A stretch of DNA of 64,000 nucleotides from Edaphobacter flagellatus. Its GTDB lineage: Bacteria > Acidobacteriota > Terriglobia > Terriglobales > Acidobacteriaceae. Shown here one piece after another: positions 23,983 through 36,063 of the stretch (position 1 is the first letter of the stretch; each line of letters starts with the position of its first letter). The notes under the pieces are model-generated. The model had not been told where the DNA came from and did not search any database. It saw nothing but the letters and a program-made list of their open reading frames with translations. The position numbers and the translations under genes are program-made. The DNA is taken from NCBI RefSeq assembly GCF_025264665.1, contig NZ_CP073697.1, positions 4,381,628 through 4,445,627 of the forward strand, read 5' to 3'.

Positions 23983-24037
23983 CGACTTCAAATTTTGAGA
24001 GCCTATGCGATTCGACTCTGATCATAGAAATCTGACA

Positions 24038-25378
24038 ATGAAGTATTTCCTTATCCTTTTCTTTTTCGCCGGCCTTCCCCTAATTTCTGCGCAAAATTTT
24101 CCAGATGTGAAGCCGAGCCCTGCTCAGCTTCAGTGGCAGGACCTTGAGATTGGCGTCATTATTCATTTCTCGACCAACACCTTTCTAAACCGTGAGTGGG
24201 GTGATGGTACGGCTTCGCCCTCGACCTTCAATCCCGCCAACGTCGACACGGACCAATGGATGCAGGCGGCCAAAGCAGGAGGCGCAAGGTACGCTGTCCT
24301 GGTTGCAAAGCATCATGACGGGTTCGCCCTCTTCCCCAGCAAGCAGACCGACTACTCGGTAAAAGCCAGTCCATGGCTCAACGGTAAAGGTGATCTTGTT
24401 CGCCTCGCGTCTGATTCAGCACGCAAGGCCGGTCTTGGTTTTGGCGTCTATCTTTCGCCGTGGGATCGTCATGATGCGCGCTATCCCGATCCTGTGGCGT
24501 ACGACAAGTACTACCTGGCGCAGCTCACCGAACTTGCCAGCCACTATGGTCCGCTCACGGAGTTCTGGCTTGATGGCGCAGGTTCTGCAGGACGCACCTA
24601 CGACTTCGACAAGATTGTTCAGGAGCTGCGTACGTACCAGCCCAACACGCTGGTCTTCGCCGACGTTGCGCTTTACAAAAATGCTGACATTCGCTGGGTC
24701 GGCTCTGAAGATGGCACCGTGCCTTACGAGAACTGGAACGTGATTGACCGCACCGGTTATCTTCGCTGGCGGCCTATCGAAGCCGATACACCACTACGCA
24801 AGCTGCACTGGTTCTGGCACCCGAACGATGAGACATCGCTTCTTTCTGTTGAAGAGTTGCTCAAGATTTATACAAAGACTGTCGGGCGCGGCGCGCAATT
24901 GATGCTGGGGCTGGCGCCCGACAACACGGGAAAACTACCGGAGTCCGATGCTGCGCGTCTTCGTGAATTCGGTGAGGCGGTACAGCGTCTTTATGGGCCG
25001 GACAAAAATCTTGCCGTGAAAGCGGTTCATGCTGCAAGCGATCCTGCTTCTGCGGCGTTTGATAACGATCCTTCGACGTTCTGGTCTGCTCCTGAACGTC
25101 ACGCCACTCTTGAGCTTCGTTTCGACAAGCCTGTCACCTTCGATCGCACGGTTACGATGGAGTGGCTCAACGATGGGCAGCGAGTGCAGGAGTACAGTAT
25201 CGAGGCATGGCAGAATGGCGCGTGGAAACAGCTTGCTCACGCACAGGCTATCGGGCATAAAAAGATCGATATTTTTCCTGCTATCACAACGCAGCGTGTT
25301 CGCCTGAATCTGCTTTCAACTGTAGGTTCAGCTGGTATTCGCGAATTTCAGATCTTCAACGGAGCAAATAACAATTGA
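24038..25378 (+). CDS. Exported alpha-L-fucosidase (GH29)
   Basis: A 446-residue secreted glycosidase. A signal peptide (YFLILFFFAGLPLISAQ) leads into a GH29 barrel: FHFST-like IIHFSTNTF, VLVAKHHDGF (family hallmark) and the catalytic nucleophile Asp179 in TEFWLDGAG. The C-terminal 100 residues resemble the F5/8 (discoidin-like) beta-sandwich often attached to fucosidases. It presumably releases fucose from plant or microbial glycans in the periplasm or outside. The ATG at 24038 begins the signal peptide. No fucose catabolic genes are adjacent. Confidence 0.92.
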   Translation: MKYFLILFFFAGLPLISAQNFPDVKPSPAQLQWQDLEIGVIIHFSTNTFLNREWGDGTASPSTFNPANVDTDQWMQAAKAGGARYAVLVAKHHDGFALFPSKQTDYSVKASPWLNGKGDLVRLASDSARKAGLGFGVYLSPWDRHDARYPDPVAYDKYYLAQLTELASHYGPLTEFWLDGAGSAGRTYDFDKIVQELRTYQPNTLVFADVALYKNADIRWVGSEDGTVPYENWNVIDRTGYLRWRPIEADTPLRKLHWFWHPNDETSLLSVEELLKIYTKTVGRGAQLMLGLAPDNTGKLPESDAARLREFGEAVQRLYGPDKNLAVKAVHAASDPASAAFDNDPSTFWSAPERHATLELRFDKPVTFDRTVTMEWLNDGQRVQEYSIEAWQNGAWKQLAHAQAIGHKKIDIFPAITTQRVRLNLLSTVGSAGIREFQIFNGANNN

Positions 25379-25451
25379 GAGGTCTCAGGCTTCTCTTTAG
25401 CCTTGACACAGCATCCTATAGATAACGGCGACGTTTCGTCTTGATGGAGAG

Positions 25452-25598
25452 ATGATGGTCATACTACTCATCATTCTGATTCTTGTATTTGGCTTCGGCG
25501 GTTATCGTATGGGACCGGGCCTGGGCTACTACGGTGGCGGAACTCTTAGTCTGATCCTTACCATCGTTCTCGTCCTGCTTTTATTGAAGATTATCTGA
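25452..25598 (+). CDS. Small membrane protein, DUF3309-like
   Basis: A 48-residue protein not longer than two membrane stretches: an Ile/Leu-rich N-terminal half, a Gly/Tyr turn (YRMGPGLGYYGGG), and a Leu-rich C-terminal half ending LLLKII. The pattern matches DUF3309, a family of tiny bacterial inner-membrane proteins with no known role. Two consecutive ATGs are available; the second has GGAG at better spacing. The stop is three bases from the stop of the convergent HerA-like gene. Confidence 0.75.
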   Translation: MMVILLIILILVFGFGGYRMGPGLGYYGGGTLSLILTIVLVLLLLKII

Positions 25599-25601
25599 CG
25601 A

Positions 25602-27107
25602 TCATCGTCTCGATGACCCACCCAGCAGGGACCCTAGTACGCCGCGGATGAGTTGTCTTCCAACCGTGCTGCCCATGGAGCGCGCGGCGCTTTTCACCAT
25701 TGCTTGCACAACGGTGTCTCCGCGTCGTGAGCTGCCTCCGCCCAATGCGTTGCCAATTACCGTTCCGGCAGCTTCGATGCTTCCAAGCCATCCTGACTGG
25801 GATTCTCCTTGTGTTGGTCCCGCTCCATCGGCAGCTACTTTGCCTTTCAGCTTCTCGTAAGCCGATTCACGATCGATTGGCGTCTCGTACACTCCGGCGA
25901 TCACGGAGTTTTTGATGATGGCAGCGCGCTGTTCCGGCGTAATCGGCCCGATCTGGCTGTGTGGCGGACATACCATCGCTCGCTCCACCACACCGGGGAT
26001 CCCTTTCTCATCGAGAAAAGAAATCAGGGCCTCGCCTACGCCCAATTGCGTGATGACTTCTTCTACGTCCAACTTTGGGTTCGAGCGGAATGTCTGCGCT
26101 GCGGCTTTCACTGCTTTCTGGTCCTTCGGCGAAAACGCGCGCAGTGCGTGCTGTACACGATTACCAAGCTGACCCAGCACGGTGTCCGGCACATCAATCG
26201 GATTCTGGGTGACGAAGAAGACGCCCACGCCCTTCGAACGAATCAGACGCACAACCTGCTCGATGCGCGACTGCAGCACCGGCGGAAGATCGTTGAAGAG
26301 AAGATGCGCTTCGTCGAAGAAGAAGACCAGCTTCGGCTTTTCCGGGTCGCCGACTTCGGGGAGTTTTTCAAATAGCTCGCTCATCAGCCACAACAGAAAT
26401 GTCGCATAGAGCTGCGGCGACTGCAGTAGTTTATCGGCTGCAAGAATATTGACGATGCCTTTGCCGTTGGCGTCCGTCTGGATCAGATCCTCGATATTCA
26501 ACGCTGGCTCGCCGAAGAACAGGTCGCCGCCTTGCTGTCCTAACGCGACTAATCCGCGTTGAATCGCTCCAATGCTTGCGGCGGAGATATTGCCGTAGCT
26601 TGTCTGGTATTGCTTCGCATTCTCCGAAACGTGCTGCAGCATCGCCTGCAGGTCTTTCATATCCAGCAGCAGGAGGCCGTTGTCATCGGCGATCTTAAAG
26701 ACCAGCGTCAGCACGTCTGTCTGCGTATCGTTCAGATTGAGGATGCGGCTGAAGAGCAGAGGGCCCATCTCGCTTACCGTTGCGCGCACCGGATGTCCCT
26801 CTTTGCCGAAGACATCCCAGAACACCACGGGGCATCCGGAGAAGGTCCAGTCACCCAGGCCAAGCGACTTCACCCGCTCATCCAATTTGGGTGAGCTCTT
26901 ACCCGGCTGGCTAATTCCCGAGAGATCGCCCTTCACATCCGCAGCGAATACGGGAACGCCGATCGAGCTGAGCGCTTCGGCCATGACCTGCAACGTCACT
27001 GTTTTTCCCGTCCCTGTCGCTCCGGCTACCAGTCCATGGCGGTTGCTCATTCCAGGCAGAAGGTGGAGCTCTTCGGCCCCCTTGGCGATCATCGGCATTT
27101 CCATCAT
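25602..27107 (-). CDS. HerA-like ATPase (DUF853, YjgR family)
   Basis: A 501-residue P-loop ATPase of the HerA/FtsK superfamily. Walker A is AGATGTGKT (29-36), Walker B is [10 protein letters not shown], and [29 protein letters not shown] carries the sensor and arginine-finger region in several short blocks. The family is also annotated as DUF853 or YjgR; its cellular task is unknown, though relatives translocate DNA. The C-terminal 90 residues are Gly/Ala/Arg-rich and probably flexible. A GNAT gene lies 36 bases upstream on the same strand and may be co-transcribed. Confidence 0.9.
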
Positions 27108-27143
27108 CTCGGCACACTCTCCATCTCGTAACGTCTATTCAGA

Positions 27144-27692
27144 CTACAACGCGGCCTCTTTCACCATCCGCACAACCTCAATCTCTTCGCCTGCGCCTAC
27201 GGGAACCTGAACGCGGTCTACCTCGCGGTATCCTTTCAACGCGTATAGGGTGACCCCCGTTAGTGTGCTTCCCATTTCAAACCGGCGAAACCCGGCGTCT
27301 ACGGCGGCCTCTTCCGCAATGCGCAGAATCAGGCTTCCGAGTCCTTTGCGTGCAAACTTCGGGTGCACAAAGATTGCACGTACTTTTGCAGCGTCGGTTG
27401 CTGGATTCAGCAGCTCCGGCTCGATTCGCTCCATCTGGGCGTCTCCGCCATAGAGCGTTTTGCGCTTCGACCATCCACCGCAGCCAGCTATCTCGCCATC
27501 TTCAGCGAGGGCAACGTAGTAGGTTCCATCTGCGATCAGTTGGCTGTCGATGGTGAAGACGGTCTTCAACGAAGCCTCGATCTGACGAGGGGAGTAGTCT
27601 TCAGCTTGCAAACCACGCACCGATGCATCGATCAATGCACGGATTTTATCCATATCTTCTGGTGTTGCTTTTCGCAGATTAAACTCGGCCAT
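27144..27692 (-). CDS. GNAT-family N-acetyltransferase
   Basis: A 182-residue acetyltransferase. The acetyl-CoA site is seen as VRAIFVHPKFARKGLGSLIL, with motif A R/Q-x-x-G-x-G/A represented by RKGLGS, and motif B is LYALKGYREVD. It starts with the usual RKATPEDMDKI. The acceptor (amino acid, antibiotic, protein or small amine) cannot be told. It probably shares a transcript with the HerA-like gene 36 bases downstream. Confidence 0.88.
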   Translation of the reverse strand: MAEFNLRKATPEDMDKIRALIDASVRGLQAEDYSPRQIEASLKTVFTIDSQLIADGTYYVALAEDGEIAGCGGWSKRKTLYGGDAQMERIEPELLNPATDAAKVRAIFVHPKFARKGLGSLILRIAEEAAVDAGFRRFEMGSTLTGVTLYALKGYREVDRVQVPVGAGEEIEVVRMVKEAAL

Positions 27693-27861
27693 GCGTAAAG
27701 TATAAAAGCGCTGGCTCAGCCTTCAGGGCGTACGCTCAGTGTGCTGCGAGTGCGTGATCGATGCCTTCCTGCGTTGAGGGCACATTCTTTGATCCTGCGA
27801 GAAAAGTAAGGTCTTGAACGGCGAGAGGGGCGGCAGCGTGGCTGGCTTGAAGAACCATTGC

Positions 27862-28239
27862 TCAGCTCCGCGTTTCGTGGGTGAGGTGGGTTGTCTTGGT
27901 TTGCTGCGTTTTCTGGCGCAGGTTGGTGGAGGCGAGCTGGAGGCAGTAGAGGAGGAGTCCGGCGCGACGCGGGTCGATGTTGTTGGTGGCGATGCGGACG
28001 AGGAGCTCGCCGAGCGATTCCTCGATGTGGTCGTGGCTGGTGGGAGTGGAGAGCGCGAAGGTGCTGCGGCGGGCGATGCGCTCGTGCGGGCGAACGACGG
28101 GGCGGCGGGAGTCGTGGTGGAAGTAGCAGAACTGCTCGTCGCGCATGCGCGGGCTTCCGCAGCGGTGGTCGTCGGGGAAGACGTGGTGGCACTGGAATTG
28201 GTTGTCGGGCTGGTCGTTGTTGATGGTGGCTTCGTTCAT
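27862..28239 (-). CDS. Small Cys/His-rich protein, probable zinc binder
   Basis: A 125-residue protein of unknown function. Near the N-terminus it has CHHVFPDDHRCGSPRMRD and then CYFHH, giving Cys17, Cys27, Cys38 and His41/42, a plausible single zinc site. The pattern of Cys, Gly-Ser-Pro and Cys-Tyr-x-His resembles small Cys/His modules found in several copies in acidobacterial genomes. The rest is polar and Thr/Gln-rich. The ATG at 28239 has GGGGGA upstream, so the open frame further upstream is not used. It lies 430 bases beyond the end of the kinase operon and on the same strand. Confidence 0.65.
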   Translation of the reverse strand: MNEATINNDQPDNQFQCHHVFPDDHRCGSPRMRDEQFCYFHHDSRRPVVRPHERIARRSTFALSTPTSHDHIEESLGELLVRIATNNIDPRRAGLLLYCLQLASTNLRQKTQQTKTTHLTHETRS

Positions 28240-28344
28240 GGGTATCCCCCCTTGTTTTTTTGGCAAAATCTTCAAAGCAGAGAATTTAGGTCTGGACCTC
28301 GGGTGCACTTGGGGTGCCAAACCTGCGGATTAAGTTAAAAGGAA

Positions 28345-28372
28345 AAGCCCCGGCGTGTGCCGAGGCTTCTTT
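28345..28372 (-). terminator. Probable terminator downstream of the kinase operon
   Basis: AAGCCCCGGC (28345-28354) pairs with GCCGAGGCTT (28359-28368) with one mismatch and a GTGT loop. On the minus strand it is followed by TTTTCCTTTT; on the plus strand by CTTTT. It lies about 300 bases beyond the operon's last stop. Confidence 0.7.
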
Positions 28373-28584
28373 TGTATCTACTTCTATTTTAGAAAATCGA
28401 ACTAAATTGATCGGCGCTTTTGAGAGATTTATTTCGGGTGGGGAAGTGGTTTGGTTTGTTTTCGATGTGGGATTGAGTGCGGGTTTTACACAGATTTGGG
28501 GGCTTGACATGAATTTCGGGTGGTCCCGGTTTGGTTTCGGGGCGCAGATGCGGATTTGGCTTCCATTGACATCAAAGGCTTCGC

Positions 28585-28625
28585 TCGAATGCCCAATCAT
28601 GCCTTCCGCATGATTGGGCATTCGA
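28585..28625. other. Perfect 17-bp hairpin downstream of the kinase operon
   Basis: The arm TCGAATGCCCAATCATG (28585-28601) is mirrored exactly by CATGATTGGGCATTCGA (28609-28625), with the seven-base loop CCTTCCG. It lies 48 bases after the stop of the 383-residue gene. There is no T-tract on either side, so a classical terminator is not certain; a transcript-stabilising hairpin or a remnant of a mobile repeat is possible. Confidence 0.7.
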
Positions 28626-28672
28626 TGTGTTGGAGGGATTTTGATGTATGGGCCACCCGCCCTATTTATAAA

Positions 28673-29824
28673 CTACACAAAGGAAGATAACTCTTCAATT
28701 GCACGCAGCCACTCACGTGTCCACGAACCATCGTTTTTGCGTTCTTCAAAGATCATTCGAGGAGTCTCCTCAAGACTTGCCCAGTTTGAGTCTGCCGTGT
28801 TGATTAAGTCTTGAGCGGTGACGGACTTTAGTGTGAGCCGTTGTTCGACGTCTGCAAACCACCACAAATATTGTTTCCAGCTTAGAGCTAACCAAGGTTT
28901 GTTATTGGTAAACGCGTTGATTATGTCTGCCCCAAAAGGATTTCGTCTCGACGCTTCACTTAGCATGCCCCTCTGTTGAAGCCGTATAAGGTCGGATTGG
29001 CGAACAAGAGCCAACAAAGCCTCTTCGATCCAATAAGGTATTTGACCACCACCATCTTTCGGTTCGTCGAATCTTCCTAGCGTGAAGCGTCGGATATTGA
29101 AGAATTTTCCGGTTGCACAGGCAGTTGCACCAGCGGCCTTCCAGAGAAGGACATCAGTTGAACAAAATCCGACCAGAACTCGCATTCCTGCGGATTCGAG
29201 TTTCTCAATGACCTTCATAGCACCCTTCAATGCTTCCGTATCTTTCTGTTCCCTCCGAGGTTCAGTAGTGCTGTAGAAGACCAGATAAACTTCGTTGGTT
29301 TTGGCGCGGCTGAGAATGGAAGTGACGGTATTCGAATAGTTTGGGGTGCCGGTTTGTTCGAGGTCTACGATCGCTGTCATGATACTTCTGTGCGTCGATC
29401 CAGTCAGGCACTGAGTGAGATGGTCACTTGTGAGGACAACTTGCTCGTAATATGCGTCAGAAAAGGTTCGGGGAACCATAGCAGGTGAGCATATGGCATT
29501 TGGGGCCATTTTGAGAGCCGTTGATAATACCAAATCGGCTGTTTGCTTCCACCAGTCGAGGGCGCTTAGGTCTGCAGTATCGACATCTTTTGGGAAATAA
29601 GGCCAAGACGGAAGGCATCCCCTCTCACTGCGAGGGGAATATAGCTGGGGATCGAATATCACTTCGAAGCTAGTACGTTGCTTCTCTCGCGTTTTTTCGA
29701 CATATTTCAACATTTCATCCGAGGTCTGGTTAACCGGGCTCAATATCGAACCTTTGTAGGTGGCCAGATTCAGATCAAAGGTCAGGTTGGCCGAGTCGTT
29801 ACCCATTTGGTGATAAGTAGCCAT
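28673..29824 (-). CDS. Unknown protein of the kinase/nuclease cassette, possible TIM-barrel fold
   Basis: A 383-residue soluble protein not recognised as a known family. Repeating hydrophobic strands followed by helices (GSILSPVNQ; TSFEVIFDPQLY; DLVLST; IMTAIVDLE; EVYLVFYST; MRVLVGFCS then LLWKAAGATACATGKFF) suggest an alpha/beta barrel. The last of these recalls the phosphate-side strands of TIM-barrel enzymes such as tRNA-guanine transglycosylase relatives; this is inference only. The C-terminal third is helical and Trp-rich. It starts nine bases after the kinase stop with AGAGGG upstream, and is the third gene of the operon. No signal peptide or membrane segment is seen. Confidence 0.7.
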   Translation of the reverse strand: MATYHQMGNDSANLTFDLNLATYKGSILSPVNQTSDEMLKYVEKTREKQRTSFEVIFDPQLYSPRSERGCLPSWPYFPKDVDTADLSALDWWKQTADLVLSTALKMAPNAICSPAMVPRTFSDAYYEQVVLTSDHLTQCLTGSTHRSIMTAIVDLEQTGTPNYSNTVTSILSRAKTNEVYLVFYSTTEPRREQKDTEALKGAMKVIEKLESAGMRVLVGFCSTDVLLWKAAGATACATGKFFNIRRFTLGRFDEPKDGGGQIPYWIEEALLALVRQSDLIRLQQRGMLSEASRRNPFGADIINAFTNNKPWLALSWKQYLWWFADVEQRLTLKSVTAQDLINTADSNWASLEETPRMIFEERKNDGSWTREWLRAIEELSSFV

Positions 29825-29833
29825 ATAACCCTC

Positions 29834-30664
29834 TTACTGAGTTCGCCAAGCATCCCGAAGTTGGCTCGGCGTTCTAAAACGATCAATTGGGAATTGATTC
29901 ACCATCTTCCGGAGAGCAGGCAAATGCGATTCCACTGCAAATCGAAAAAACTGCGCCTGTGGGTCCGACCCGTCTGCAACTCGGTCTACACACTCATAAC
30001 CTGAGTCAAGATCGGTCGAATAAGGATGTTTGCGACCTTGAGCCATCGTGAGTGTTACTCCAAGAGCAAACTGATCTGACCTCCAGTCAATCATCTCCTT
30101 CCGATTATTAAGTTGTTCAGACGGAGCAAAAAGTGGTGTGCCTGGGCCCATCGATACCCATGTTTGAGTCAATGAAGAACGGGAAAGATCTCTAACGATA
30201 CCGAAGTCCACCACCACAGGTTGCCAAGATAACGAGGACCGAAACATGATGTTGTCAGGTTTTAAGTCACGATGAACTAGGTTGAGTTGATACAAGTGAT
30301 CGAGTACTTCGATCAGAGCCGCACCTACTTCTAGTGTTTGTTCTCTTGTTAGGGGTGTTGTTTTCACTCTGTCCGCGAGCGTGCCGCCTGCTATGTACTC
30401 CTCAATAAGACATGTGTATGTCGATGTACCCAAACTAAAGGTCTCAACGGATTCAAGCTGGGCGATATTCGGATGACTGCATCTAACTATGGCATCGATT
30501 TCACGTTCAGTTCTAGAGTGAGAGGATTTGTGTCCAATTACTTTTAAGGCCAGCGAGCGCGTTCCATCATCTACAAGAAAGGTCTCCTTAAATGCTCCTG
30601 CCCCAACCCGTTTACGAAAATGCAGACTTTTTTTTGCAGCGTAAGCCTTCGCTACGATTTCCAT
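29834..30664 (-). CDS. Hanks-type serine/threonine protein kinase
   Basis: A 276-residue soluble kinase consisting of the catalytic domain only. The glycine loop is VGAGAFKET (20-27), the ATP lysine Lys41 (ALKVI), the catalytic loop HRDLKPDN (131-138) and the metal loop DFG (153-155). GPGTPLFAPSEQ resembles the activation-segment APE motif, and DWRSDQFALGVTL is subdomain IX. It lacks the PASTA or other sensor domains of housekeeping kinases. It lies between a nuclease-like gene (12 bases upstream) and an unknown gene (9 bases downstream), so it probably acts on or with them. Confidence 0.9.
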   Translation of the reverse strand: MEIVAKAYAAKKSLHFRKRVGAGAFKETFLVDDGTRSLALKVIGHKSSHSRTEREIDAIVRCSHPNIAQLESVETFSLGTSTYTCLIEEYIAGGTLADRVKTTPLTREQTLEVGAALIEVLDHLYQLNLVHRDLKPDNIMFRSSLSWQPVVVDFGIVRDLSRSSLTQTWVSMGPGTPLFAPSEQLNNRKEMIDWRSDQFALGVTLTMAQGRKHPYSTDLDSGYECVDRVADGSDPQAQFFRFAVESHLPALRKMVNQFPIDRFRTPSQLRDAWRTQ

Positions 30665-30676
30665 GGGCGCTCACGT

Positions 30677-31084
30677 TCACACCGAAGCAAGACTTCTAGC
30701 CTGTGCAGTAATCCAAGGCTCTAGTGGCGGAGATGGATTGGGCGTGAATAGGATTTTTATTTGCCCACCTACAATACAGCAAATTCCCACTCCTCTTACT
30801 TCGAATTCATTCATAAATTTAAGGGCGAAGTTTGCTTTTGGTTCTGGCATGAGAATGTATGACTCTTCAGCGAAGCACGTGTTTCTGTAAGCTTGATCGA
30901 GGGCTTTACGCCAGTCGATAAGCTTTGCCTCAATTGCGATCGTGGAGTTGTCGGTCGTAATGACTACGTCGGTCTTACCGCGAGCGTAGAAAAATTCCTG
31001 AACAATACCTACTTCCCCCCACGGTGTTTCACCCGAACGCAGTAGGTCAACAAACGTCGCCACTAGTGTCGCTTCTGAACTCAT
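30677..31084 (-). CDS. PD-(D/E)XK nuclease-like protein
   Basis: A 135-residue protein with the arrangement of a restriction-endonuclease-like fold: a conserved Glu in IVQEFF, then GKTDVVI (Asp39), then IAIEAKL (Glu52-x-Lys54), then WRKALDQAYRN with Gln64 in the helix that often carries the fourth motif. ESYILMPEP would be the following strand. The size allows only the core fold. Whether it cuts DNA or only binds it is unknown. First gene of the three-gene operon; AGGA lies ten bases before the ATG. Its base composition is visibly richer in A/T than that of ffh next door. Confidence 0.72.
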   Translation of the reverse strand: MSSEATLVATFVDLLRSGETPWGEVGIVQEFFYARGKTDVVITTDNSTIAIEAKLIDWRKALDQAYRNTCFAEESYILMPEPKANFALKFMNEFEVRGVGICCIVGGQIKILFTPNPSPPLEPWITAQARSLASV

Positions 31085-31170
31085 GCTTAAAAGGTCCTAA
31101 CGCTCTTTTCGCCCAATTGTCCTTCAAAACTAGCTGTTCAGTACATCCATTTTCAGATGTACCTAGCTAG

Positions 31171-32556
<1,386 letters not shown>

Positions 32557-32600
32557 GACTGGTTTAAGTTTACCAGTGCGGAGCGGAAGATTTGACGGAG

Positions 32601-33899
32601 CTAGTTGACCTGGACGAGGGTTCCTCCCTTGACGAAGGTGATGACAAGGTCGACGAGGTGGGTATTGGGGTCAGAGAAGGCCTTATAGGTGGCTGAGTAA
32701 CCGTTGAGGGAGCGGAGCGCAGTGTTCTTGTTAAGGAAGGTGGTGAGGTAGTTGACGTCGTAGAAGTCGCCTGGGTTCATGCGCCATGCGGAATCGAATT
32801 CCTTGCGCTGGACGTCGGAGAGGCCTTCGGCTTTGACGGAGTGCAGGCGGTACTGCTCGCCGGGGACGACGTGGACGGTATAGGAGACGTGGTGCGTGGC
32901 TTTGTCGAGGGAGGCCGGGGCCTGCACTTTGACGTCCTGATAGCCCTTGGCGTAGTAGGCGCGGGCAAGCGTGGTGAGGCTTTGTTTGAGGGCGAGCTGC
33001 GAGGCGACGTCTTCAGGTTTGAGCTTGGCCTGCTTGTCGAAGTCGGCGGTGCTCATGACATCGGAGCCGGGCCAGGTGAGGCGGGAGAGATGATAGGGCT
33101 CGCCTTCGCTGACAGCGGCGGTGAGATCGAGGTTGATGGCGTCGGAGGTGACCTGCGGCGCGGAGTGCGTGTAATTCGTGACCGAGGCATTGAGATAGCC
33201 GTCGTTGCGATAGACGTCGGTGATGAGCGAGGTGATAGTGGACTCCGTAGTGAGCTGATCGAAGGGCTCGCCGGAGACTTTCTGGGCGACTTTGTCGAGC
33301 TTGGGCTGCAGAGCCGGAGATGTGGAAGCGAAGTGCAGTGTATGGACGCGGACTTCGGGGGAATCGATGAGGAATTTGACGGATGTCGGTGTGGCTCCGG
33401 CGCCGGGGGAGACGGGTATTGCGACGACGGTCGCGGTGACGCTTTTTTCGGCGAGCATGGCTTTGAGGGCGGCGACGACGCTGTCCTGCATGTTGCCTGC
33501 GGTTGGCACGGTGCCCTGGTAGAGAGGGACGCGGGTTTTAAGTGCAGCGGAAAGCTCTTCCGGAGTCCACCAGACGAAGTTGGCGAAGCGGGCAGGCAGA
33601 AGGTTGTCGTTGGGCATCATCTTGAGCGAGAAGACGAGGCCCGTGGATTGGGACGCGAACCGAATGTCGCTGAAGAGGCCGGTGTCGTTGAGTTTTTGTG
33701 CGGCGGCGTTGAGCTCGGTGACAGTGGAATTTGCGCCGGGCGTGAGATGCGTAAAGGCTAAGAGCTCGGCTTGGGAATAGGCAGGTGCTCCGGTGAAGGA
33801 GATGCTTTTGGGCAGGATGACGGTTTGGGCGTTCAGGCTGTTGGATACAGGCAGAAGGCAAAGGGCAAGTAGAGCAAGAAAACCAGTGGTCGGACGCAT
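32601..33899 (-). CDS. Exported multi-POTRA protein without a barrel
   Basis: A 432-residue exported protein. After a signal peptide (FLALLALCLLPVSNSLNAQ), at least three and probably four POTRA-like repeats are visible, each with a strand, a helix ending in a Gly-aromatic turn and a closing strand: AAQKLNDTGLFSDIRF, ITDVYRNDGYLNASV, LARAYYAKGYQDVKV and a last unit near 370-430. The repeats resemble BamA, TamA or FhaC periplasmic domains, yet the protein ends without a beta-barrel. It may be a scaffold in outer-membrane assembly. The ATG at 33899 begins the signal; ffh starts 44 bases after its stop. Confidence 0.72.
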   Translation of the reverse strand: MRPTTGFLALLALCLLPVSNSLNAQTVILPKSISFTGAPAYSQAELLAFTHLTPGANSTVTELNAAAQKLNDTGLFSDIRFASQSTGLVFSLKMMPNDNLLPARFANFVWWTPEELSAALKTRVPLYQGTVPTAGNMQDSVVAALKAMLAEKSVTATVVAIPVSPGAGATPTSVKFLIDSPEVRVHTLHFASTSPALQPKLDKVAQKVSGEPFDQLTTESTITSLITDVYRNDGYLNASVTNYTHSAPQVTSDAINLDLTAAVSEGEPYHLSRLTWPGSDVMSTADFDKQAKLKPEDVASQLALKQSLTTLARAYYAKGYQDVKVQAPASLDKATHHVSYTVHVVPGEQYRLHSVKAEGLSDVQRKEFDSAWRMNPGDFYDVNYLTTFLNKNTALRSLNGYSATYKAFSDPNTHLVDLVITFVKGGTLVQVN

Positions 33900-34116
33900 T
33901 GTGAGGAACAATATCGCAAAGAGTGCGGAGTGAAAAGAAGAAAGTTAAGGGCAAAGCGTGAGGCTTCTTATTTGTTGGGGGGATGATAGCTCGAAGTATC
34001 TCGATGCAGAATTTGCTGGTACCAATCAGGGGGTGTGTTGGATGGTTCGTAGCTTGGTGGGTACATCGAGTGGGTGTGGGGTCCGCGGTTCGGGTGGATG
34101 ACCGGATAATGAGGTC

Positions 34117-35067
34117 ATGCAGCAAAAGGGCCAGGTGGCGGGAAACGTTCAGATCGTGCGTGAGTATGCGACGTTTCTACGCGTGGAGAAGGGCATGCGT
34201 CCGGCGACGTGTGAGGCGTATCAGCGAGATATCGAGCAGTTTGCGGAACATGTCGAGGGGCGCGATGGCTTGCTGGTGACGGCTCAACAGCAAGACGTGA
34301 GCGGTTTTATGGAAGGGCTGCGCGGACACGGTGTGGAGTCACGATCGATTGCGCGGAAACTTAGCGCCTTGAAGGGCTTTTATCGCTGGCTGTTGATGGA
34401 CAAGCGGATTACGCATGATCCGACGGTGAATGTGGAGTCGCCATCGAGCTGGAAGATTCTGCCGAAGAGCCTTGCTGAGGGTGAGGTAGCGGAGATGTTG
34501 GAGCGTACGGGGGCTGCTGCTCATGTTGCAGATGCGGATGGCTTGTCGCTGCGCGATCACGCGATTCTGGAGCTGCTGTACGCAGGTGGGCTGCGTGTAT
34601 CGGAGATATGCGGTCTTCATGTGGAAGACCTGCAGCTCGACTCCGGGCGTGCTCTGGTGCGGGGCAAGGGCGACAAGGAGAGGATTGTTCCTCTGGGCCG
34701 GTCTGCGGTCGAGGCGCTGGAGCAGTATCTGAAGCTGGGGCGTCCTGAGCTTGTGCATGGAGCGATGCAGCGGGCGCTGTTTCTGAGTGTGCGCGGCAAG
34801 CCGCTGACGCGGCAGTGGGTATGGGAGATGGTGAGGGCGGCAGCGCCGAGGAGCAGCAAGGCGAGTCCGCACAAATTGCGACATAGTTGCGCGACGCACA
34901 TGGTGGAGCATGGCGCGGACCTGAGAAGTGTGCAGACTCTGTTGGGGCATGCAGACATTGCAACGACGCAGGTGTATACGCACGTGGCTCTGGGACGGTT
35001 GAAGCAGGTACATCGGATGCATCATCCGCGCGGCAAACGATATGGGGCGCGGGCGGCTGGAGAGTAA
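34117..35067 (+). CDS. Tyrosine recombinase, XerD/XerC-like
   Basis: A 316-residue site-specific recombinase with a SAM-like N-terminal domain (15-105) and a catalytic domain. Catalytic residues are Arg160 (GGLRVSE), Lys184 (GKGDKERIVP), His252 and Arg255 (HKLRHSCATH), His278 (LGHADIATTQ) and nucleophile Tyr287 (QVYTH). Such recombinases resolve chromosome dimers at dif. It is followed after three bases by a second recombinase, so the two probably form the XerC/XerD heterotetramer. GAGG precedes the ATG. No excisionase or phage genes are near, which argues against a mobile integrase. Confidence 0.9.
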   Translation: MQQKGQVAGNVQIVREYATFLRVEKGMRPATCEAYQRDIEQFAEHVEGRDGLLVTAQQQDVSGFMEGLRGHGVESRSIARKLSALKGFYRWLLMDKRITHDPTVNVESPSSWKILPKSLAEGEVAEMLERTGAAAHVADADGLSLRDHAILELLYAGGLRVSEICGLHVEDLQLDSGRALVRGKGDKERIVPLGRSAVEALEQYLKLGRPELVHGAMQRALFLSVRGKPLTRQWVWEMVRAAAPRSSKASPHKLRHSCATHMVEHGADLRSVQTLLGHADIATTQVYTHVALGRLKQVHRMHHPRGKRYGARAAGE

Positions 35068-35070
35068 CGA

Positions 35071-36063
35071 ATGCGCGAAGGCGGCGAGTTCGTCCAACTG
35101 GCAGAACGGTTTCTGGCGATGCTCGCGAATGAGCGCGGCGCGTCGGAGCATACGGTGCGTGCGTACGGACGCGAGGTGCGGAGCTTTGCTGCCTATCTGT
35201 CGGATAGCCTGGGCGAAGGTGGACAGATGGTGCAGGTGGAGCATCTGCACATCCGAGCGTATCTTGGCGTGTTATATGAGCGTGGTCTGACGAAGGCGAG
35301 TGCGGCACGGGCACTGGCTGCGGTGCGGAGTTGGTTCAAGTGGCTGGCCAAAGAGGGTGTGGTGGAGCAGAATCCGGCGCTGCTGGTGAGCACGCCGAAG
35401 CTGCCGAAGCATCTGCCGCGTGTGCCGAGTGCGGAAGAGGTGAATCGCGTACTGAACTCACTGGAAGAGACTCCTTTGGCGGCAAAGAGCAAAAAAGCGA
35501 AAAAGGATTCTGATGACGGCGATGCCGTTGCGTGGCCGGAGCGCGACCGTGTGATCTTTGAGCTGCTGTATGGATGCGGCATTCGTAATTCAGAGCTGGT
35601 GGGCCTGAATGTGGATAGCGTGAAGTGGGGCGATGACGCCATCCTTGTTCGTGGTAAGGGGCGAAAGGAGAGGCTGGTTCCGTTGGGCGATGAGGCAGCG
35701 GTTGCGCTGCGTGCATATCTGCCAGCGCGCGAGGCTCGGCTGATAGCGGCTGGCAAGGGCGCGAAGGTACATGAAGGGCCTCTGTTGACGAACCTGCGTA
35801 TGCGCGGGGATTGCAGGCTGACGACGCGCAGTGTGGGCAGGATTGTGAAGGCGATTGCTCTAAGCCGCGGGCTTCCGGCAGATGTTCATCCGCATACGCT
35901 GCGTCATGCTTTTGGCACGCACATGCTGGAAGAAGGGGCAGACCTTCGCGCAATTCAGGAGATGCTGGGACACGAGAGGCTGTCGACTACGCAGCGCTAT
36001 ACGCAGCTGACGGTGGGACAGGTTCAGAGGGTGTATGACGAGACGCATCCTCGCGCGAAGTAG
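35071..36063 (+). CDS. Tyrosine recombinase, XerC/XerD-like
   Basis: A 330-residue recombinase, partner of the preceding one. Catalytic residues: Arg172 (CGIRNSE), Lys196 ([10 protein letters not shown]), His275 and Arg278 ([11 protein letters not shown]), His301 ([10 protein letters not shown]) and Tyr310 (QRYTQ). A charged insert rich in Lys and Asp (about 138-150) lies between the two domains, lengthening it relative to XerD. The last 77 bases overlap the 3' end of the convergent histidine kinase. It is the second gene of a two-gene unit. Confidence 0.9.

Follow-up and report, generated by a model that had tools for sequence, protein, structure and literature searches.

The kinase-kinase-phosphatase module (KKP) is an anti-phage system found in P4 satellites, in Mu-like prophages, and near transposons (PMC11341870). 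Published accounts indicate that PglW of type 2 bacteriophage exclusion (BREX) and some DndF variants unite a nuclease (REase) and a kinase in one component (PMC12839542, PMC10853773), that the validated systems of DefensePredictor include a metallophosphatase and a HipA-type kinase (PMC13092281), and that P4-like satellites are known to harbor a reservoir of anti-phage systems at their psu-int site (PMC9122126). Here we describe a three-gene cassette from a 64,000-nucleotide stretch of Edaphobacter flagellatus contig NZ_CP073697.1 (this whole stretch being referred to as the window). It encodes a nuclease-fold protein (NUC), a kinase (KIN), and a barrel protein (BAR) whose predicted fold resembles that of tRNA-guanine transglycosylases (TGTs; Table 1). 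The cassette is a real, conserved, mobile three-gene system of bacteria and archaea that includes an unnamed protein family, and the sequence comparisons below make a role in defense likely.

Conservation of the three-gene linkage

BAR homologs at E <= 0.001 numbered 556, and the surroundings of BAR were compared across 52 loci: 42 from a scan of genome contigs, 6 genuine loci from whole-genome searches (besides the window's own), 2 from plasmids, and 2 from viral contigs. Within this set L046 repeats L015, and L041 equals L042 over 20.7 kb. Three further BAR matches (L051, L052, and L053; E 9e-9, 1.3e-7, and 2e-4) have no adjoining KIN or NUC and were excluded as spurious.

In 51 of the 52 loci KIN and BAR are neighbors on one strand, the sole exception (L026) being cut by a contig end, and NUC is present in 47. 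The five loci without NUC include three that are cut at its expected site (L010, L024, and L026); of the other two, L031 ends about 150 bases past BAR on the side where its tree neighbors have NUC, and in L005 the kinase is shortened and no NUC was found. Since the three genes occur together in 47/52 loci, their grouping does not reflect chance. The initial annotation had proposed a three-gene unit and called for a check of co-occurrence in other genomes; the unit stands, and the outcome in which the homologs never co-occur is excluded.

Gene order is less constant than membership: in 36 of 47 loci NUC is encoded ahead of KIN and on its strand, and in the other 11 (L011, L032-L038, L045, L050, and L057) it is found past BAR in opposite orientation. 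This displacement in 11 loci, which include L011 of the close clade, indicates that the linkage outlasts rearrangement; distant members likewise retain co-occurrence. Pairwise distances of the three proteins are correlated across 33 loci (r 0.87-0.95) and within the close clade (0.75-0.80; 22 loci), and none of 2000 permutations reached as high a value for any pair, in a test that leaves shared ancestry in. This analysis omitted L012, L028, L029, and L036 (split or cut genes), L040-L042 (near-copies), and L011, L015, and L045-L050, where the tiling of open reading frames (ORFs) missed one gene or the whole locus.

Distribution and genomic context

Among 61 genomes searched as relatives, BAR occurs in two, the window genome and, as a distant version, G035; matches were found in 9 of 297 genomes of the phylum, six of them genuine. 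The BAR tree holds 15 phylum-level groups, several of them intermixed, a mixing that alone is not proof of transfer. On the ffh side, all 15 same-genus loci compared (L119-L133; flanks of up to 1.5 kb, one of only 0.2 kb) lose similarity to the window within 36 bases of the ffh end. Longer stretches fetched from three relatives (G010, G012, and G002) retain the genes at 25.5-27.7 kb of the window in all three and those at 24.1-25.4 kb in two; no match to the cassette was found in the fetched stretches, and the two relatives with ORFs listed (G010 and G012) have different genes after ffh. By sequence comparison, the window's cassette occupies a post-ffh site that is variable between relatives.

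A number of other loci place the cassette in mobile elements or near defense genes. Endolysin, portal, head, and tail genes surround it on viral contig L056, which we take to be Mu-like. Viral contig L057, read as a P4-like satellite, has a pair of Psu-like genes along with a primase gene and one for a type I-B reverse transcriptase (L057:3-1049; PADLOC, 6e-113), and L035 (Silvania) has Psu upstream and a metallophosphatase and an HNH endonuclease downstream; relative to the psu-int reservoir, what is seen for the cassettes of L035 and L057 is proximity to Psu genes. L057 also presents two candidate defense units, the cassette and the reverse transcriptase, on a single element. TniB together with TniQ or TnsA-like genes occurs in L038 (Vibrio metschnikovii), L017 (Burkholderia arboris), and L025 (Chitiniphilus), while L055 is plasmid pPNAP03 and L054 a plasmid of haloarchaeal origin that also carries a DrmMI/type IIG-like gene. 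Relaxase and AbiEi/AbiEii genes lie within 10 kb in L041 (marine flavobacteria), an integrase and methylases are near the cassette in L009 (Rubrobacter), and a large restriction-modification (RM) enzyme is near it in L023.

L041 and L042 also have a large methylase-helicase-like gene. These two loci are 100% identical over 20,699 bases, one of the records being named Maribacter sp. 4G9 and the other Euzebyella saccharophila; the identity reflects either a very recent mobile-element transfer or a matter of labeling or contamination. The plasmid search returned one record each for the BAR of L035 and that of the window. A phage collection queried with the L035 BAR only gave no match, and the L035 cassette DNA was unmatched in E. 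coli genomes.

Protein families of the cassette

The AlphaFold2 model of BAR (predicted local distance difference test score 95.3) is a predicted TIM barrel. In fold comparison, TGT entries fill ranks 1-24 at 6-9% identity, and the predicted barrel is of the TGT type and related to that of DpdA; predicted structure and fold matches agree with an earlier guess that this 383-residue protein is an alpha/beta barrel. A conserved pocket comprises G8, S29-P30, D58-P59-x-x-Y62-x-P64, G239, N243, R245, and F247, each present in 71 or 72 of 72 aligned rows. The motifs of TGTs are absent from these rows: the Zn motif C.C..C and DSGG[FY]Q are each found in 0/72 BAR rows versus 20/20 TGTs, and GG[LF]..GE in 0/72. 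Position 237, where by our alignment by eye with TGTs their nucleophilic Asp would presumably fall, is Ala in 63 rows, Thr in 7, Ser in 1, and Cys in 1.

Searches of Pfam and NCBIfam returned no family for BAR above cut-off and PADLOC gave no match; no Pfam domain was found in the 120 homologs listed of the 556. Querying the PDB by sequence identified nothing credible (best E 0.033, to CutA, from the BAR profile), and the BFVD search gave two matches at E <= 0.001, neither informative, with annotated phage TGTs ranking 11th and 28th.

KIN gave the only convincing Pfam match among the three genes (Pkinase, PF00069, 9e-28), and its Pfam matches are of kinase type only. In a 43-row alignment, two rows of which are halves of the split L012 gene, K41 is retained in 40 rows, H131 in 41, and E55, D133, D153, and G155 in 42; the deviating rows are gaps, except for a single Arg at 131. 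The VAIK Lys, helix-C Glu, HRD, and DFG motifs are all found, in agreement with the initial annotation of a Hanks kinase with complete catalytic motifs. The best PADLOC models were mad6 and then PD-T4-6. KIN matches the PglW model (1403 positions) at 517-770 only, the kinase region; a full-length PglW was not found.

In NUC, D39, E52, and K54 are invariant in 34/34 aligned rows, the window's own included, and E30 and Q64 are likewise conserved. The predicted fold belongs to the PD-(D/E)XK superfamily, with an alpha-beta-beta-beta-alpha-beta core; together with the invariance, this bears out the PD-(D/E)XK assignment initially made from Asp39, Glu52, and Lys54. The fold is matched best by SPO1766, whose function is unknown, and EndoMS, a mismatch endonuclease, is close. 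No Pfam family matched the window's NUC above cut-off, and the 34 rows gave weak matches to PDDEXK_9 (2/34, best 0.0051) and HSDR_N (2/34, best 0.052). PADLOC-DB 2.0.0 (2023) returned only PDC-S26, at 0.047, which was not counted as a model match, and a PDB sequence search found no credible match. Distant versions, 11 of the 34 rows (L030, L032-L040, and L043), contain an insert of ~70-80 residues that separates the catalytic D from E-x-K, and part of these inserts score weakly as helix-turn-helix.

A fourth gene is present at some loci. In L035, L038, and L057 the gene next to NUC encodes a metallophosphatase (mutual E 1e-54 to 1e-119; PF00149 for L035), and in L054 another follows BAR; phosphatase queries against the loci drew a response from these four only. 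With a kinase and a phosphatase in one unit, a reversible phosphorylation switch would be the simplest reading.

Layout of the locus in the window

Table 1. Coordinates of the cassette genes and the adjacent inverted repeat in the window
Feature	Position	Strand	Description
NUC	30677..31084	minus	135 aa; PD-(D/E)XK nuclease-fold protein (predicted); E30, D39, E52-A-K54, Q64
KIN	29834..30664	minus	276 aa; stand-alone Hanks-type Ser/Thr kinase; K41, E55, H131-R-D133, D153-F-G155
BAR	28673..29824	minus	383 aa; TIM-barrel protein, tRNA-guanine transglycosylase-like fold (predicted)
Inverted repeat	28585..28625	.	18-nt perfect arms, 5-nt loop, 47 bases past BAR stop

ORF coordinates and base composition match the first description of the cassette as three same-strand genes, A/T-richer than the flanking ffh: the gaps are 12 (NUC-KIN) and 9 bases (KIN-BAR), and G+C content is 47.6% at 29001-31000 (cassette) versus 61.1% at 31001-33000, which holds ffh. 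The repeat past BAR has a folding z of -5.2, and its 16-nt core has no second exact copy anywhere in the genome; it is possibly a 3' transcript end or terminator (without a T-run), or a recombination site. A promoter and terminator scan gave counts no different from shuffles. Between ffh and NUC, at 31141-31162, a 7-nt inverted repeat (GTACATC/GATGTAC) was spotted by eye and is a possible candidate operator of the cassette. Farther away, 34117-36063 holds tandem tyrosine-recombinase-like genes (316 and 330 aa), XerC/XerD-like as recognized by eye only.

Proposed function and alternatives

That the trio travels between distant bacteria and archaea, with several copies on viruses, plasmids, and transposons, suggests an antiviral defense unit, and defense of some kind is the outcome we would expect with reasonable confidence. 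In the mechanism that we favor, BAR would recognize, or act on, some feature of a base or nucleotide in nucleic acid that is invading or has been altered by infection; KIN would relay this signal by phosphorylating BAR, NUC, or both; and phosphorylation would free NUC to cut DNA, whether the invader's or, in abortive infection, the host's. The metallophosphatase, where present, would reset the switch. Such a relay would account for the kept active sites and pockets of all three proteins, for the variable order but near-constant membership, and for the phosphatase at some loci, and the predicted TGT/DpdA-like fold of BAR lends some weight to the sensing of nucleic-acid modification.

We consider the chances about even that the cassette, with three and sometimes four genes, moves horizontally and acts against phages or mobile elements by a BAR-KIN-NUC relay; the specific assignment of sensing to BAR, phosphorylation to KIN, and cutting to NUC is at best evenly balanced. 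More tentatively, the cassette may represent an undescribed class of immune system common to bacteria and archaea: bases of foreign or damaged nucleic acid would be read, or excised, by a protein with the TGT fold but no transglycosylase motifs, and a eukaryotic-like kinase, with or without a phosphatase, would switch a small PD-(D/E)XK nuclease on and off, a phosphorylation-gated restriction.

Several results weigh against the favored explanation. When hits are ordered by Foldseek's own E-value, PdxJ comes first and TGT at ranks 7 and 15. Alignment of BAR against 20 TGTs of the phylum with hhalign gave a local probability of 0.3 (percent scale), at the level of the controls (PdxJ 0.6, DHDPS 0.1); a profile-profile link between BAR and TGT was accordingly rejected, which leaves the fold link standing by itself, and this predicted fold is the sole ground for the part given to BAR in the mechanism. 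As a 135-aa PD-(D/E)XK protein, NUC could be a non-catalytic binder. The phage-defense role put forward in the initial annotation gains mobile-element and defense-gene neighbors at a number of loci but lacks a matched control, these contexts having been chosen by eye (11 contexts among 52 loci, or 14 loci with near-copies L039, L040, and L042). Three of the 13 loci with ORFs listed (L021, from Undibacterium terreum, L027, and L033) showed nothing recognized by eye. A tally with Pfam and PADLOC covered 118 of 277 neighbors (those of 170 aa or more lying up to 6.5 kb away, taken in order of proximity), and each of the 25 PADLOC families shown matched two of them at most.

A function outside defense, such as a stress or DNA-repair role or mobile-element maintenance with KIN tuning a repair nuclease, seems unlikely to us. 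The proximity of the NUC fold to SPO1766 and EndoMS would suit it, as would the tRNA housekeeping enzymes that are the nearest folds to BAR; however, the cassette is missing from nearly all close relatives searched and scattered over phyla and mobile elements, and some loci are neighbored by retron-type reverse transcriptase, AbiE, or RM genes. We likewise assign a low probability to a KKP-like kinase poison of the toxin-antitoxin kind, in which KIN would be a toxin that phosphorylates host proteins on infection and is restrained by BAR, NUC, or the phosphatase. Although KKP, with its anti-phage effect, occupies similar niches in P4 satellites, in Mu-like prophages, and near transposons (PMC11341870), and four loci do have a metallophosphatase, no others answered the phosphatase queries, and a passive antitoxin would have no need of the active site that is invariant in 34/34 NUC rows. 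It is also improbable that the cassette is a Dpd-like modification-restriction system, in which BAR would exchange or alter a base of the host's DNA or tRNA, NUC would cut unmarked (or marked) nucleic acid, and KIN would merely regulate: all three TGT motifs are absent from the 72 BAR rows, position 237 is never the Asp we would expect there, deazaguanine-synthesis or DpdB-like genes were not recognized among the ORFs checked by eye (no dedicated search was made), and the intact kinase is left unexplained.

If the relay reading is correct, it would add a widespread defense cassette missed both by Pfam, on the homologs listed, and by PADLOC 2023. It would also tie protein phosphorylation to DNA cleavage via three small separable proteins, show the TGT fold in use beyond known base exchange, and make testable what the kinases of bacterial immune loci phosphorylate and how the effector is triggered.

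Comparison with known systems

A literature search found no description of the NUC-KIN-BAR trio; supplements lay outside this search, and some large-scale prediction may list the trio without naming it. The available portion of the DefensePredictor paper does not name the trio (PMC13092281). The cassette belongs with mobile defense cassettes, a known kind, and is possibly a new class. Its barrel protein differs from tRNA-guanine transglycosylases proper (PF01702) in its very low identity, in lacking the Zn motif, and in lacking a profile match. The Dpd system (DpdA, PDB 7ui4) similarly places a TGT-fold protein and a nuclease in one defense unit, but BAR is without TGT motifs, Dpd is not known to have a kinase, and the Dpd partners (DpdB/DpdC, restriction proteins) were not recognized by eye in the listed ORFs, for which no dedicated search was made. 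Defense kinases of the PD-T4-6 and Stk2 type are Hanks kinases as well, PD-T4-6 models being the best PADLOC matches to KIN after mad6; these kinases act as single genes, whereas KIN is almost constantly linked to NUC and BAR.

PglW and the DndF variants resemble the cassette in joining a nuclease and a Ser/Thr kinase in defense, and KIN matches the kinase region of PglW. However, the cassette proteins are small and separate and are accompanied by a predicted TGT-fold protein; the Pfam families shown for NUC do not include NERD, and PglZ, BrxC, and PglX were not recognized by eye among the ORFs at 24000-36000, where no family search was made. KKP differs in having two kinases (CSD and FHA) and a PP2C, whereas the cassette has one kinase with kinase-domain matches only, a metallophosphatase (where present) instead of PP2C, and no phosphatase in the window's trio; nothing in KKP corresponds to NUC or BAR. 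The cassette nevertheless shares with KKP a stand-alone Ser/Thr kinase, sometimes a phosphatase, a logic of phosphorylation, the form of a small mobile operon, and similar niches (PMC11341870).
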